DNA of 64,000 nucleotides from Okeania sp. SIO3I5 (lineage in GTDB: Bacteria; Cyanobacteriota; Cyanobacteriia; Cyanobacteriales; Microcoleaceae). The stretch lies in the NCBI RefSeq assembly GCF_010672085.1, contig NZ_JAAHHT010000026.1:1-64000 (forward strand), read 5' to 3'. The notes below the pieces were generated by a model, which was not told the DNA's origin, searched no databases, and was given only the letters and a program-made list of their open reading frames with translations. This document shows, one piece after another, positions 15,328 through 23,188 of the stretch; position 1 is the first letter of the stretch, and each line of letters begins with the position of its first letter. A program made the translations under genes and the position numbers.

Positions 15328-15533
15328 GGCAGGGTCAATTTATTGTTACGCCTAGAAAAAAGTAGGAGAGGGTGGGGAGGTGTGGGAGGTGTGGGAGGAA
15401 AGTCCGCTTTTATTTATGGAGCTTGGGATACCCCAAGACCTTATCCTCCTCATCGGGACCATCGGGACCATCGGGACCATCGGGACCACCCTCTCCCTAA
15501 ATATTCTCTGGCGACAAAGAATGAGCAATGCCT
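15328..15533. repeat. Hairpin element C with ~45-bp inverted ends
   Basis: The left end GGCAGGGTCAATTTATTGTT and the right end ...GACAAAGAATGAGCAATGCC are imperfect reverse complements. Inside them a G-rich run (GGTGTGGGAGGTGTGGGAGG) faces a C-rich run of CATCGGGAC-type repeats, so one strand can fold into a long hairpin. The same ends, with different inner microrepeats, are at 51096-51315. Confidence 0.65.
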
Positions 15534-15827: not shown

Positions 15828-16055
15828 GAAAGCTATCCCTGATCAGGAACTCCTGAAACCCTTGTGGAGAGGGTGGGGAGCATGGGGAGGATGGGGAGGA
15901 TGAGAAGGAAAAATCCTGTCTATATTGATAAAAAAGTGTATTGAAAAATACTCTTTTCTCCTGAAAAAGCAGATTCAAGAATTAAACATAACTTGTCTAT
16001 GTTGTCAAGTTTTATGTTAAGAAAGATGTATATAAAGCATAGCTTAGAAAGGGGG
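15828..16055. repeat. Repeat element D
   Basis: It starts at GGAAAGCTATCCCTGATCAG and runs through GAACTCCTGAAACCCTTGTG, a GGGGAGGAT run, AAAAGTGTATTGAAAAATAC and TTGTCTATGTTGTCAAG, ending AGATGTATATAAAGCATAGC. A copy with the same order is at about 50886-51092 and a 3' fragment at about 42508-42548. It is non-coding. Confidence 0.65.
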
Positions 16056-16502: not shown

Positions 16503-17141
16503 TTGGCAATTAGTTTAGTAGGAGAAAATATGGCTGAATTAAGCAAGGAAGAAATGCGTGAAAGACTGGGCAATATTGACAAGATTCGCGATATAATTTT
16601 TGGTTCTAAGTTGAGAGAATACGAAAGTCGTTTTGATAATTTAGAATCAGAATTATCCATAGTTAAACAAGAAATTTCTAATCAAATAGAGCAAGTCAAA
16701 AATGCTTTTTCGACAGAACTACAAGCTACGGTTGATTCTATGGAAAAAAAAATTAGAACTATAAGTTTAACTCTGGAAAATACTCAAGAAGATATTGGAG
16801 AAACTAAGCAAAAAATTGAAAGAGTAAATCGTAAAATTGCTACAACTAAAGAAGGCTTGGATGAAATTATTGATAACCAAACAAATTCTATCCGGGCAGA
16901 TTTGTCTCAAACAAGAGAGAAATTACAAAATGATGTTATGAATCTTAAAAGCCAAATATTTGAGGAACTTGAGAAACGTTTTTCTTTACTGAAAGATAGC
17001 AAAGTTTCACAGGATGACTTGGCAGAAATTATGTTTGAAATTGGCATGAGGATGAAAAAGACTGAGTTTGTAACTGAACTGATGGAAGCAGCAGATCAAA
17101 ATTTAGAAACAGCAATTTTAAAGTCAAACAACAATTATTAA
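16503..17141 (+). CDS. Coiled-coil protein, first gene of the OmpA/GTPase operon
   Basis: This 212-residue protein is almost entirely heptad-rich coiled coil (about residues 35-175: LESELSIVKQEISNQIEQVK, TISLTLENTQEDIGETKQKI). It has no signal peptide and no membrane segment. The first 25 residues (MAISLVGENMAELSKEEMRERLGNID) and the last 35, with MFEIGMRMKKTEFVTELMEA, may be small interaction heads. An alternative start at MAELSKEE (16530) has AGTAGGAGAAAAT upstream and is at least as likely. No enzyme motif is visible. It sits 12 bases before the OmpA/BON gene in the same direction, so the products probably act together, likely as a cytoplasmic partner linking to the GTPase. Confidence 0.75.
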   Translation: MAISLVGENMAELSKEEMRERLGNIDKIRDIIFGSKLREYESRFDNLESELSIVKQEISNQIEQVKNAFSTELQATVDSMEKKIRTISLTLENTQEDIGETKQKIERVNRKIATTKEGLDEIIDNQTNSIRADLSQTREKLQNDVMNLKSQIFEELEKRFSLLKDSKVSQDDLAEIMFEIGMRMKKTEFVTELMEAADQNLETAILKSNNNY

Positions 17142-17153
17142 GTTCTGGGAAAA

Positions 17154-19799
17154 ATGGCTTACTTAGATAGAAAACTCGGTAATAATCAGCAAAATATAAA
17201 TAATAATCAATCTGTTGAACTAAACCCGGAAGCAGTTGTACAGTTAGAACGTTTGCTGAATTTATTGACTGACCTCAATTTAATTAATTTTCCGGTAGAA
17301 TTAACAGAGGAATCTATTAAGCCTGAAGAGCAGAAAAATTTGCTCGCAACTCAAACTAATCAAACGGAAGAAAATCATAATTTAATCCATCAGAGCATCA
17401 CTAAAAATTCTGCTGAAAATGAAGATGACGTTATTGATGTAATTAATTTTCTAGCAGAATTGCCAGAGGAATTTATCGAGTCTAAAGAGCAGAGAAATTT
17501 ACTCATAACTGAAACTGATCGAGCAGAAAAAAATCATAATTCAATCCATCAGAGCATCACAAAATATTCTCGTCAAAATTACGATAATGTTATTAATTTA
17601 GAGAGTCAATCTACCAAACATCAACAAGAAATACCAACCAGAGAAAAACCATTATTTATTCCTGAAAAATTATCAGAATTATCAGGGTGTCATCAACAAA
17701 ATGATGCGGAGTTAGAAGCGTTTGAAGCTCTACAAAATCTTTTATTTGGTTCACAAGTAGCTAGATTAATTAGAAAGCTAAATACTAACCTGAAAAAACA
17801 AAACTTTAATGATCGTCAAGATGAATTAAAAAATCTATTCAATCCTTTATTACTAGAAAATTTATTCACTCATTTAGGTCAAACAGAAGGAGAAGTTCTA
17901 GAAACAATTACCCCAGTAATTGACGAAGCTATACAAAAAAGATTTAGACAAGATCGAGGAGCAATCAGTTCTGCACTAGCTCCTATATTATCTCCGGCAA
18001 TAGCAATACAAATAAATCAAGATCCCCAAGTAATGGCTGAGGCACTAGCACCAATTATTGATGTTATTCTGATTAAAAAAACAGAACAAGACCAACAATC
18101 AATTATTGAAGTTTTAGCACCTTTATTTCCAGTAATAATTTCCTATGTTATACAGAATTATCCTCAAGAAATTGCTAAGGCATTGGCACCAGAAATGGGA
18201 GCGGCAATTAGAGAACAAATTAAGATAGATAAGCGACAAATTTCCCAAGCATTAGCACCAGAAATGGGTACAGCAATTAAAGAGCAAATTTTCTTAGAGC
18301 AAAATTCTATAGTTGATGCTTTATATCCTGTTATTGGCAGTACCATTTCTAAATACATGACAGAAGCAATCCGGGAAATTAATGAGAAAATTTCAGATAC
18401 ATTTAGTTTCAAGGGAATAAGACGGAAAATTCAGGCAATTTTTCGAGGGGTTTCTGAGGCAGAACTTATTATCTCAGAAATAATGGTTTTTGCTGTCCAA
18501 GCAGTATTTTTAATTCATAAAGAATCTGGTTTAGTAATTGCTGAAGCTCAACAGTCTGGGCGAGAAAAATTAGAATCAGAAATGGTGGCGGGAATGTTAA
18601 CAGCTATTCGGAGTTTTGTGAATGATTGTATTGTTCAGTCTGGAGATGTTTCAGAATTGAATGAGATTGAATATGGAGATTCAAAAATTATTTTAGAAGT
18701 TGTCGGATATTGTTATTTAGCAGTAGTAATTAAGGGAGAACCTAGCAAGTCATTTATCAAAGAATTACGACAAACACTCACCAATATTGTCATAGATTAC
18801 GGTAAAGATATTAAGAATTTTGCCGGCGATCCAGATACAATCCCTAGCTCAATTAAATTACAACTAAAAGGATTATTAGATGTAGATGTACAAGAAAATG
18901 AAAATAAAAAATTATCTATTTCTAAACCTCCCACTGCTTTGTTAATAGTTGGTGGATTAGTTGCAAGTTTAATTTTAATTCCCTGGGGAATTTATCAGTA
19001 TTACAGTAGACTTTATCGAAGTGTTGAAGTCAAAACTACTCAAGCTTGGGCGAATGCTCCAGAATTAGCTTTTTATAGTTTTAGTTTAAATGCAGAAGTA
19101 AAAAGAGGTTCTTTAACTCTAACTGGGAAACTACCAAATCAAAATTTACTTGATCGAGCAGTAGAAATAGCCAAAGAACAGGCTAATTTTTCTAATTTAG
19201 ATTTAGAACTAGATAATCAAATAGTAGCTATAAAAGTACCACCTGACCCCTGGAAAATAAGTGGTGAAGTAGAGCGAATCACAAAAGCATTAAATCAAAT
19301 AGAAGGAGTGTCGATAAGCAGTAACTATACAGAAGATAAAGTGACAGTCAAAGGAACAGTGATGGATATGGCAGATGTTGAGAAAATAACCAAAAAAATT
19401 GAACAAGTTCCTGGAGTTGAATCTGTCACTACCACGATTAAACTAGATCCACTAAAAGTGAAAGAGCGCATCTATTTCGCTCGAGGTTCAGCTAAACTTG
19501 AATCTGCTTATGCAAAGACAATAGCTGACATTAAAGAATTTCTGAGTCAATACCCTCAAGAAAATCTTAGGATAATAGGTCATACAGATCGTACTGGCAA
19601 TCCAAATATTAACAAAAAATTGGCCCTGAGAAGAGCAAATGTAGTTAGGTATGCTTTAGTAAAGGAGGGAGTAGATGCCAGACGATTAAAAGTAACTGGA
19701 CAAATAAACTCTCCTCAAGATGTGGAGTCTAATCAACCACTATTGTTAAGTAGGTGTGTAACATTTGATTTGTTTAAAGGAACGGCAAAAGACAACTGA
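17154..19799 (+). CDS. Large BON/OmpA-domain membrane protein with ALAP repeats
   Basis: The 881-residue protein begins with a polar N-terminal third containing two similar 60-70-residue segments (LPEEFIESKEQRNLL, repeated in variant form). Residues about 265-415 hold five or six ~24-residue repeats centred on ALAP(I/E).(G/S).AI..QI. One transmembrane helix is at about 594-617 (ALLIVGGLVASLILIPWGIY). The part after it is periplasmic by inference: two BON-like modules (about 640-765, with GSLTLTGKLPNQNLLDRAVEIA and VKGTVMDMADVEKIT) and a C-terminal OmpA-like domain (about 770-875) with IIGHTDRTGNPNINKKLALRRA, which in this family binds peptidoglycan. The layout suggests a link from cytoplasm to cell wall. 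The Rab-like GTPase gene follows eight bases after the stop. Confidence 0.82.
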   Translation: MAYLDRKLGNNQQNINNNQSVELNPEAVVQLERLLNLLTDLNLINFPVELTEESIKPEEQKNLLATQTNQTEENHNLIHQSITKNSAENEDDVIDVINFLAELPEEFIESKEQRNLLITETDRAEKNHNSIHQSITKYSRQNYDNVINLESQSTKHQQEIPTREKPLFIPEKLSELSGCHQQNDAELEAFEALQNLLFGSQVARLIRKLNTNLKKQNFNDRQDELKNLFNPLLLENLFTHLGQTEGEVLETITPVIDEAIQKRFRQDRGAISSALAPILSPAIAIQINQDPQVMAEALAPIIDVILIKKTEQDQQSIIEVLAPLFPVIISYVIQNYPQEIAKALAPEMGAAIREQIKIDKRQISQALAPEMGTAIKEQIFLEQNSIVDALYPVIGSTISKYMTEAIREINEKISDTFSFKGIRRKIQAIFRGVSEAELIISEIMVFAVQAVFLIHKESGLVIAEAQQSGREKLESEMVAGMLTAIRSFVNDCIVQSGDVSELNEIEYGDSKIILEVVGYCYLAVVIKGEPSKSFIKELRQTLTNIVIDYGKDIKNFAGDPDTIPSSIKLQLKGLLDVDVQENENKKLSISKPPTALLIVGGLVASLILIPWGIYQYYSRLYRSVEVKTTQAWANAPELAFYSFSLNAEVKRGSLTLTGKLPNQNLLDRAVEIAKEQANFSNLDLELDNQIVAIKVPPDPWKISGEVERITKALNQIEGVSISSNYTEDKVTVKGTVMDMADVEKITKKIEQVPGVESVTTTIKLDPLKVKERIYFARGSAKLESAYAKTIADIKEFLSQYPQENLRIIGHTDRTGNPNINKKLALRRANVVRYALVKEGVDARRLKVTGQINSPQDVESNQPLLLSRCVTFDLFKGTAKDN

Positions 19800-19807
19800 C
19801 TATAATT

Positions 19808-20329
19808 ATGATATCGAAAAAAATTTGTCTTGTTGGTGATTTTGGTGTGGGAAAAACTAGCCTAATTCGTCGATTTGTGGATCGACAATTTAGTGATAAA
19901 TATCTTTCTACAGTGGGGGTAAAGATTTCTACTAAAATAGTAAATTTAGCCACAACAGAAACAGAAAAAAATAATTCCTTGAAGCTATTAATTTGGGATT
20001 TAGAAGGACATACTAAGTTTAAAGCGATCGCTCCTAGTTATTTACAAGGATCGAGTGGAGCGATAGTTGTTGCAGATGTCACTCGTCAAGAAACTATAGA
20101 TAATCTAGCTGAAAGATTAGAATTATTTTTCTCAATAAATCCTCAAAGTTTAGCTATATTGGCTTTTAATAAATCTGATTTAGTTGATGCAGAAATAATT
20201 AATCAACTATTATTAAAATTTAGCGATCGGGAAGATGAAAGAGTTATTGCGACATATCATACATCTGCTAAAACTGGTGAAAATGTGGATGATATTTTTG
20301 ATAAGTTATCTTATAGGATAGTGGCATAA
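19808..20329 (+). CDS. Rab/Ras-like small GTPase
   Basis: The 173-residue single-domain GTPase has all five G motifs: G1 GDFGVGKTS (about residues 8-16), G2 threonine in STVGVK, G3 WDLEGH, G4 NKSD and G5 TSAKTG. The core resembles Rab/Ras proteins more than bacterial Era or Obg types. The G3 box reads DLEG instead of the usual DTAG/DTPG, which may change hydrolysis or switch II behaviour. No lipid-modification cysteines occur at the C-terminus. It is the third gene of the operon with the coiled-coil and BON/OmpA genes, so it probably acts as a switch on that membrane assembly; polarity, gliding or envelope anchoring are plausible, none shown. Confidence 0.85.
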   Translation: MISKKICLVGDFGVGKTSLIRRFVDRQFSDKYLSTVGVKISTKIVNLATTETEKNNSLKLLIWDLEGHTKFKAIAPSYLQGSSGAIVVADVTRQETIDNLAERLELFFSINPQSLAILAFNKSDLVDAEIINQLLLKFSDREDERVIATYHTSAKTGENVDDIFDKLSYRIVA

Positions 20330-21359: not shown

Positions 21360-22913
21360 ATGATTAACCTATTTAAAAAACTATTATCGTCTCGTCAAAC
21401 AGAGTATTCGATCATTGATTCCCAGTTAAAAATTTTAGAGGTATCAAATGGGTTAAAAAAATTTGCTGAATTTCCAGAATTAGCAGTTCCAGGTGAAGAT
21501 ATTCAGAATAGTTTTCCAGAATTAGTAGGATCTGAAAAATTATTAGAGGAAGTGATTAGTGGCAAGAGAGAAAATTTTGAATATGAGGGGGTAGCTAGAT
21601 ATTCCACAGAAAAAAATCCTCTATATTTTAATATCCTTGTAATTGCTGATTTAGATGAAAATTCCCAGGAGCAAAATTTAATAGTATTAGTAGAAGATGT
21701 CACTGAAAAAATGGTAATGCAGCAAAAGTTAATTCAAAGTGCCAATGAATCTAATCTTTTATTAAATAAAATAACTGCGTCTCAGGATTATATTAATAAA
21801 ATTATTACTTACATGGGAGATGTTTTATTGGTAACAACAAGTTCGGGAGTGATTAAAACTATTAATCGAGCAGCAGAAATTTTATTTGATTATCAGGAAG
21901 AAGAGTTGCTAGGCAAAGAAATTTCCATGATTATTCCCCAAGAAAAATTACTACATAAAGCGCGAGAGAAACATCTGCTATTACAAGGAAAAGTATCTCA
22001 AGATGTAGACTTAATTTGTCAGAACAAAAGTGGAGAAAAAATTATTGTTGAATTTTCTTGTTCAGTAATTCAGACAGATGTTGAAGGAGTAGAAAATTTT
22101 GTTTATATAGGTAGAGATATTACAGAGCGGAAAAAAGAGGAAGAAAAAATACGTCAAGCTTTGGAACAAGAACGAGATTTAAGAGAAGTAAGGGGTCGTT
22201 TTTTCTCAATGGTTACTCACGAATTTGGTAATCCGTTGAATACAGTTTTATTATCTACTCAATTGCTACGAAGTTATGAATCTCAAATTACTGAAGTCGA
22301 AAAAGATAAATATTTAGTATTTATTGAAGAGTCTACACAAGAAATGCTTGAACTGCTAAATGATGTCAGATTTATTGGTAAAGCGGATGCTGGAAAACTG
22401 AAATATAAACCGGCACCTATTGATTTGATTAAAGTCTGTAATTATATTGTTAATTCAATTAAAGTTACTGCTAGAGATAGACATATTATTAATTTTACGG
22501 TTAGCAAAAAATTTTCCACAAAATATAAGTCTAAGTCTGGCAATAATGAGGTGCAATTTTTCTTGATGGATGAGAAACTAATTCGACATATTTTAAATAA
22601 TTTGTTATCTAATGCTGTTAAGTATTCACCGACAGGAGGTAAGATAGATTTTCAGTTGAGTTTGAACGATCAAACAGGCATTTTTCTGATTAAAGATGAG
22701 GGAATAGGTATTCCAGTTGAGAACCAAAAAAAATTGTTTGAATCTTTCTACAGAGCAAGTAATGTAGGCAAAATAGGAGGAACAGGATTAGGATTGTCTA
22801 TTGTTAAACAGTGCGTAGAGTTGCATCGTGGAAAAATAGATTTTTCTAGTGAAGTTGGTAAAGGAACTACTTTTATAGTGGAAATTCCATTAGAAAGAGT
22901 ATCTTCAAATTAG
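21360..22913 (+). CDS. PAS-domain sensor histidine kinase (orphan)
   Basis: This 517-residue protein is soluble by sequence (no membrane segment). An N-terminal PAS-like region covers about residues 8-120 (TEYSIIDSQLKILEVSNGLKKF...IVLVEDVTEK). A second, clearer PAS/PAC module covers about 140-255 (TTSSGVIKTINRAAEILFDY, ending YIGRDITERK). The H box SMVTHEFGNPLN has the phospho-accepting His near residue 287. ATP-binding boxes follow: N (NLLSNAVKYSP), G1 (DEGIGIP), F and G2 (GGTGLGLSIVKQC). It should autophosphorylate in response to a cytoplasmic signal and pass phosphate to a response regulator, but none is nearby. The H box reads HEFGNPL rather than HE(L/F)RTPL, as in some cyanobacterial kinases. 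Confidence 0.88.
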   Translation: MINLFKKLLSSRQTEYSIIDSQLKILEVSNGLKKFAEFPELAVPGEDIQNSFPELVGSEKLLEEVISGKRENFEYEGVARYSTEKNPLYFNILVIADLDENSQEQNLIVLVEDVTEKMVMQQKLIQSANESNLLLNKITASQDYINKIITYMGDVLLVTTSSGVIKTINRAAEILFDYQEEELLGKEISMIIPQEKLLHKAREKHLLLQGKVSQDVDLICQNKSGEKIIVEFSCSVIQTDVEGVENFVYIGRDITERKKEEEKIRQALEQERDLREVRGRFFSMVTHEFGNPLNTVLLSTQLLRSYESQITEVEKDKYLVFIEESTQEMLELLNDVRFIGKADAGKLKYKPAPIDLIKVCNYIVNSIKVTARDRHIINFTVSKKFSTKYKSKSGNNEVQFFLMDEKLIRHILNNLLSNAVKYSPTGGKIDFQLSLNDQTGIFLIKDEGIGIPVENQKKLFESFYRASNVGKIGGTGLGLSIVKQCVELHRGKIDFSSEVGKGTTFIVEIPLERVSSN

Positions 22914-22914
22914 G

Positions 22915-23015
22915 GAAGTGTGGGGAGTGTGGGAAGTGTGGGAAGTGTGGGAGGTGTGGGGAGTGTGGGAAGTGTGGGAGGTGTGGGAGGTGTGGGGAGT
23001 GTGGGGAGTGTGGGA
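22915..23015. repeat. GTGTGGGAG-type microrepeat run
   Basis: Directly after the histidine kinase stop there are about ten tandem copies of a GGAGTGTGGGAAGTGTG-like 8-10-base unit. Similar GTGTGGGAG runs lie at 15378-15400, 51140-51185 and 58757-58785. It gives long open frames (Ser-His-Thr repeats on the minus strand) that are not genes. The following 23030-23150 region holds two imperfect copies of a TACTTTATTTGAATGA...AAAAAATGTGGTGTTTTT segment. Confidence 0.75.
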
Positions 23016-23188
23016 AGAAGGAAGAAAAAAATACTCTACTTTATTTGAATGATGAAAAAAAATGTGGTGTTTTTGCCTAAAAAGTGTGGAATAGGGAATA
23101 GAAAAAAAGCTGTACTTCATTTGAATAACGACAAAAAATGTGGTATTTTTTTCCCTAGAAAGTAAACTTATACAGGAATAATCATACT

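Follow-up and report, generated by a model that had tools for sequence, protein, structure and literature searches.

Analysis of a 64,000-nucleotide stretch of the cyanobacterium Okeania sp. SIO3I5 (contig NZ_JAAHHT010000026.1, positions 1 to 64,000; this whole stretch is called the window hereafter) points to a four-gene set in which a wall-anchored protein and a Rab-like GTPase would act together in signaling. The set lies on the plus strand and encodes a coiled-coil cytoplasmic protein (203 aa, 16530-17141), an 881-aa middle protein (17154-19799), a Rab-like GTPase (19808-20329) and a histidine kinase with a PAS-fold N-terminal domain (517 aa, 21360-22913). Conservation within the middle protein peaks at residues ~424-560, and this part, for which the window copy has no Pfam match, very probably has a longin-type fold according to structure prediction. 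This domain (residues ~445-580, positions 18486-18893) is placed on the cytoplasmic side and is a candidate GTPase-binding platform. We propose, with a probability of roughly 0.6 for the mechanism as a whole, that a wall-tethered longin platform sets the nucleotide state of the GTPase and that the GTPase in turn regulates the PAS output protein. Taken by itself, a direct interaction between the longin domain and the GTPase appears likely.

The fold assignment is based on an AlphaFold2 model of residues 415-596, which was built from 74 sequences and has a mean predicted local distance difference test score (pLDDT) of 80, rising above 90 in the core. Secondary structure elements of the model follow the order b-b-a-b-b-b-a-a (strands at 33-41 and 47-52, a helix at 61-82, strands at 90-93, 96-103 and 106-113, and helices at 118-140 and 152-161). 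Longin domains have the order b1-b2-a1-b3-b4-b5-a2-a3, and the C-terminal third helix separates them from roadblocks (PMC10933270). Foldseek matched the model to Ragulator roadblocks, sigma subunits of AP complexes, TRAPP, MglB, VAMP7 and Mon1-Ccz1. Z-scores from VIA-align were highest for VAMP7 (13.2) and Sec22b (13.0), followed by Fuzzy (12.0), Ykt6 and TRAPP (11.9 each), an Asgard roadblock (11.3) and MglB (11.1). Longins could be aligned over model residues 31-166, including the C-terminal third helix, whereas roadblocks were aligned only to ~141 and their N-terminal helix was unmatched. This pattern follows the published difference between the two folds (PMC10933270) and makes the modeled domain longin-type, with some doubt left by the low confidence of the two helices preceding b1. 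The same pipeline, applied as a control to the N-terminal domain of the fourth protein, yielded PAS/LOV folds and not longins.

We also examined the domain at the sequence level. The family PF19036 ('First Longin domain of FUZ, MON1 and HPS1') gave sub-threshold matches to 5 of the 74 domain sequences (best E 8e-4). A 1203-aa paralog has a match at the equivalent place (E 8.7e-4, below the curated cut-off), and over 33 genomes the best match was obtained for a paralog of ~1,200 aa (E 1.3e-4); the genome-wide best match to PF19036 was found only in the 1205-aa paralog, in two of these 33 genomes. A profile of the domain alignment retrieved no longin or roadblock from the solved structures by sequence. 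In a profile-profile comparison with cyanobacterial roadblock proteins, the two were in register at the b1-b2-a1 core with probabilities of 3-18% (0.2-0.6% for controls), a likeness that is suggestive but not proof.

Gene sets of this kind have been described before. Wuichet and Sogaard-Andersen (2014, PMC4316618) place Group 1 Rup GTPases, which lack the catalytic Gln, next to three conserved genes. The first encodes a coiled-coil protein, another a protein whose conserved domain was of unknown type and in many cases precedes a single membrane helix and OmpA, and the third an output protein, typically a histidine kinase or GGDEF/EAL protein, whose N-terminal region has an invariant Gln. Their paper reports neither a function nor a roadblock partner for Group 1 Rup, and it leaves the domain of the OmpA protein unidentified. 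We are nearly certain that the window set belongs to this group: its GTPase has no Gln in the G3 motif, and it is accompanied by a coiled-coil gene, a gene for an unknown domain followed by a transmembrane (TM) helix and OmpA, and an output gene with a conserved N-terminus. Correspondence to the invariant Gln holds at the level of the N-terminal region, where Gln122 and Gln126 are both candidates for the residue of that paper. The window set is thus a further member of a neighborhood known since 2014 (PMC4316618); an earlier reading of this DNA from its sequence alone (the sequence-only reading) had stated that no function could be named and had not recognized the neighborhood.

Compared with that description, the unknown domain is here predicted to have a longin fold and the N-terminal region a PAS fold, and class III nucleotide cyclases and SpoIIE are added to the outputs. 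In the open-access literature, we found no paper on Rup function or on a cyanobacterial longin domain; as far as we could find, the longin identification is new, and so are the cyclase and SpoIIE outputs, which may already be in the tables of the 2014 paper. With the predicted longin fold, the Rup GTPase would have a candidate roadblock/longin partner after all. Robl_LC7 (PF03259) has no match in the whole source genome, so this genome contains no hidden MglB, and for lack of any such genome-wide match an MglA/MglB system was rejected.

The sequence-only reading had pointed to three tightly spaced genes, and these are indeed on the same strand (ORFs at 16503-17141, 17154-19799 and 19808-20329) and only 12 and 8 bp apart; the coiled coil, ALAP repeats, single membrane helix, BON, OmpA and eukaryote-like GTPase with DLEG that it listed are all present. 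Two features had escaped it: the fourth gene and, within the middle protein, the conserved domain around residues 445-580. The co-occurrence that it had asked for across relatives, and whose absence would have refuted it, was found and extends to the fourth gene. The search covered 292 cyanobacterial genomes from across the phylum. Full-length orthologs of the middle protein (E < 1e-100) were detected in 31 of them, the GTPase (E < 1e-50) in 30, the coiled-coil protein in 33 and the N-terminal domain of the fourth-gene product in 35, and all four components occur together in the same 30 genomes. Hypergeometric p values of the three partners against the GTPase are 4e-40, 4e-36 and 7e-38, which overstate the number of independent events because of kinship among the genomes. 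The sole genome with the middle protein but without the GTPase contains a ~1,200-aa paralog. Paralogs of this length (loci L043-L046, L140, L151 and L157) contain ALAP-like repeats, the longin-fold domain, BON and OmpA and have no Rup GTPase nearby; the one in L046 adjoins PdxA.

Gene order was assessed in the best 80 contig matches, of which all but one, labelled Gracilibacteria, have cyanobacterial titles. Of 76 assessable loci, 65 have the coiled-coil gene upstream of the middle gene; the GTPase gene is downstream of the middle gene in 68 of 75, and the fourth gene follows the GTPase gene in 57 of 68. All four genes have dN/dS values of 0.15-0.42 against two Okeania relatives. Several genomes contain a second, strongly diverged operon (L048-L052) that keeps the order coiled coil-middle gene-GTPase, with identities of 20-24% over the aligned region for the middle protein and ~38-44% for the GTPase. 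These data support the view that the four genes are a genuine conserved unit. In four of the five diverged operons (L048, L049, L051 and L052; e.g. L048:8452-8853), an ORF of 127-135 aa without Pfam match is located directly after the GTPase gene; by eye it is similar to a stand-alone PAS-fold N-terminal domain, with a profile comparison that was not significant.

The single-domain GTPase matches Ras in Pfam (E 1.1e-27), and its closest solved relatives are Rab22A (best, E 9.6e-26), Rab14 and Rab1. All G1-G5 motifs are present (GKTS, T35, WDxEG, NKxD and SAK), switch II of the window protein being W-D-L-E-G and its G3 motif DLEG-H. Among 92 GTPase homologs, the P-loop, Thr35, NKxD and SA are invariant, while the position of the catalytic Gln is occupied by His in 46 (His68 in the window), Ser in 24 and Gln in 11. 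Moreover, the position of Ras Ala59 is Glu in 87 of the 92. The lack of the catalytic Gln, together with Glu at the Ala59 position, is consistent with a GTPase that needs a partner. In human KRAS, A59T leads to gain-of-function behavior in cells (PMC6952822), which by analogy makes slow intrinsic GTP hydrolysis by the Rup GTPase plausible. The C-terminus has no cysteine for lipidation; thus, recruitment to the membrane would require a partner, and the wall-anchored protein suggests itself for this role.

The fourth component consists of a PAS-like domain, a PAS domain and a histidine kinase. Its N-terminal PAS-fold domain with a signaling helix (21360-21794, plus strand) is common to fourth-gene proteins of any output, as seen from conservation, and was predicted as PAS/LOV by AlphaFold2 and Foldseek. 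In the first 145 residues, Pro53, Glu54, Gly57 and Tyr89 are invariant and Glu59 and Thr115 almost invariant. When 52 fourth-gene proteins were chosen by this common domain, the outputs were histidine kinases (31), class III nucleotide cyclases (14), GGDEF proteins (5) and SpoIIE (1). A constant N-terminus combined with exchangeable outputs suggests that the N-terminal domain is what the GTPase set controls. The sequence-only reading had considered a GTP-controlled cell-envelope anchor; the anatomy does suggest a GTP-controlled, wall-anchored device, but a sensor kinase as fourth member (elsewhere a cyclase or GGDEF protein) points to signaling rather than to a purely structural anchor. In locus L042 (genome G229), three PAS-fold proteins of the fourth-gene type surround one GTPase, with six matches genome-wide, which may be read as an expansion of outputs for one switch.

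The same N-terminal domain might take a more active part, acting as the GTPase-activating protein (GAP) that supplies the missing Gln while the longin domain merely recruits; that the Gln comes from the N-terminal region of the output protein is a suggestion made in PMC4316618. Such a role would suit a GTPase without its own catalytic Gln and the near invariance of Gln122 (103 of 108) and Gln126 (105 of 108). Furthermore, genome G078 has a GTPase gene adjoining a PAS-fold gene at a site separate from the middle gene, and so do genomes G033 and G045 for a second GTPase, indicating that these two can travel as a pair. However, both Gln residues lie in the signaling helix after the PAS core, which is a simple structural reason for their conservation, and Pro53, Glu54, Gly57 and Tyr89 are equally invariant. 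We regard this alternative as unlikely.

The remaining parts of the middle protein would form a tether. Behind a variable N-terminus, which in the window includes an in-frame 159-bp tandem duplication (1.8 copies, 17281-17570), there are six ALAP-like repeats (17973-18386), whose motifs at residues 274, 297, 320, 343, 366 and 389 have a period of exactly 23 residues. Repeat units are inserted or missing in close relatives, and this variation in copy number would suit a spacer. The longin-fold domain is followed by a single TM helix (residues ~594-617, 18933-19004), a hydrophobic segment, TALLIVGGLVASLILIPWGIYQYY, that was recognized by inspection and is conserved in the alignment. Next come a BON region (residues ~703-764, 19260-19445), covered by two Pfam stretches (best 725-764, E 1.6e-10), and an OmpA-like peptidoglycan-binding domain (residues 774-852, 19473-19709; Pfam, E 9.7e-16), all on the plus strand. 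The closest solved structure to the OmpA domain is Omp38, and Rv0899 chains are also among its structure matches. In OmpA of Acinetobacter baumannii, diaminopimelate is bound by paired Asp and Arg 15 residues apart, which we take to correspond to Asp812 and Arg827 of the middle protein. The window protein has both; among 80 homologs, 60 retain Asp812 and 79 retain Arg827, and given the former number a minority of homologs may bind the wall weakly. With its OmpA domain, wall anchor and one TM helix, the protein could also belong to an energy-coupled, stator-like device that passes force across the membrane like MotB, but the helix contains, by inspection, no acidic residue, unlike that of MotB-type stators, and is preceded by ~590 residues on the cytoplasmic side. 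None of the conserved neighbors was recognized as a channel partner, and such a device is highly improbable.

In the mechanism that we prefer, the one helix of the 881-aa protein would span the inner membrane and the BON-OmpA part would tie it to peptidoglycan, leaving the repeat spacer and the longin-fold domain on the cytoplasmic side. The longin-fold domain, and not the ALAP repeats that the sequence-only reading had chosen as the partner for modeling with the GTPase, is the predicted GTPase-binding part. It would most likely bind the GTPase and set its nucleotide state as a GAP, a guanine nucleotide exchange factor (GEF) or a recruiting platform, a role modeled on the way in which MglB, Ragulator, TRAPP and Mon1-Ccz1 act on their GTPases. 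The GTPase would then switch the fourth-gene PAS protein, a histidine kinase here and a nucleotide cyclase, GGDEF or SpoIIE protein in relatives, and the coiled-coil protein probably assembles the complex. The periplasmic anchor might either report the state of the wall or fix the position of the complex.

Several points weigh against this mechanism. Sequence evidence for longin ancestry is weak, and some longin domains, namely those of SNAREs, do not regulate GTPases. In addition, the GTPase and kinase genes of the window are separated by 1,030 bp of non-coding, AT-rich DNA without any ORF of at least 60 aa, so co-transcription is not assured in this genome; the gaps of 40 and 190 bp in two Okeania relatives are a counterweight, and the gap is ~1.6 kb in the close relative L081. 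The signal might run from wall to kinase or in the reverse direction. A wall tether with a coiled-coil partner and a GTPase resembles localization modules, and MglA systems control polarity (PMC4316618). The longin domain might be an effector or scaffold, much as in the anchor or polarity device of the sequence-only reading: GTP-bound Rup would dock on the wall-anchored protein and so place a complex at a pole or septum, with the kinase acting upstream. Swappable enzymatic outputs located downstream in gene order, however, fit regulation of an output better than an input. A role in motility or polarity, which the sequence-only reading had also considered, may exist; the set is also present in genera such as Xenococcus and Hydrococcus, which are non-filamentous and have no gliding filaments. 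On balance, the effector or scaffold role seems rather doubtful, though less so than the PAS-fold domain as GAP.

Applied to the whole group, the proposed mechanism would make Group 1 Rup a bacterial Rab-longin module, in which a longin domain of the Mon1/Fuzzy kind on a peptidoglycan-anchored protein has a Rab-like GTPase as its target and drives second-messenger or phosphorelay outputs that can replace one another; we consider the odds of this generalization about even. In the portion of the literature consulted, longin domains of that kind have so far been discussed for eukaryotes and Asgard archaea. A longin-type fold in the OmpA protein provides a concrete partner hypothesis for the Group 1 Rup GTPase that is testable with a few purified proteins. 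If true, it would extend the rule that Ras-like GTPases are paired with roadblock/longin proteins to the Rab-like prokaryotic branch, bear on the origin of eukaryotic Rab-longin modules, and open a path by which the state of the cell wall could feed into kinase, cyclic-nucleotide or cyclic di-GMP signaling in cyanobacteria.

Four known systems are comparable in part. The MglA-MglB polarity switch also joins a Ras-like GTPase with a partner of roadblock/longin fold and has links to two-component signaling, whereas the window GTPase has Ras/Rab-like motifs and its candidate partner is longin-type and anchored to membrane and wall. The Rab exchange factors Mon1-Ccz1, Fuzzy-Inturned and TRAPP, in which longin domains act on Rab GTPases, are similar in structure (Z 10-12) and through the sub-threshold PF19036 matches of paralogs, but the Rup set is bacterial and has one predicted longin domain per chain, fused to TM-BON-OmpA. 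Actinobacterial conservons (CvnA-D) likewise hold a GTPase, a roadblock-fold partner and a histidine kinase in one gene set; they differ in having an MglA-family GTPase and a separate roadblock protein and in lacking OmpA or a wall anchor. Finally, proteins of the OmpATb type (Rv0899) contain BON and OmpA in one chain, as the middle protein does, without a longin domain, repeats or a GTPase partner.

With respect to the first gene, which is the first component of Group 1 Rup sets, only coiled-coil-type families were matched in Pfam and NCBIfam. Its ORF opens at TTG 16503, the start adopted in the sequence-only reading, but ATG 16530 is most likely the true start: it is preceded by AGGAG at 16520-16524, and homolog alignments begin at that Met. 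Other observations concern repeats and broken copies of the genes. The stop codon of the kinase gene is also the start of an array of about 11 copies of the 9-bp unit GGGAAGTGT (22913-23017), and further 9-bp arrays are found at 15451-15488 and 15865-15902. In Hydrocoleum sp. CS-953 (L080:2796-7370), the coiled-coil, middle and GTPase genes are each broken into two frames, by either sequencing error or decay. In L081:11074-13601, the kinase gene is followed by two additional copies of its terminal 226 bp, with 95.6% identity and ~352 bp apart, reflecting either tandem duplication or an assembly artifact.

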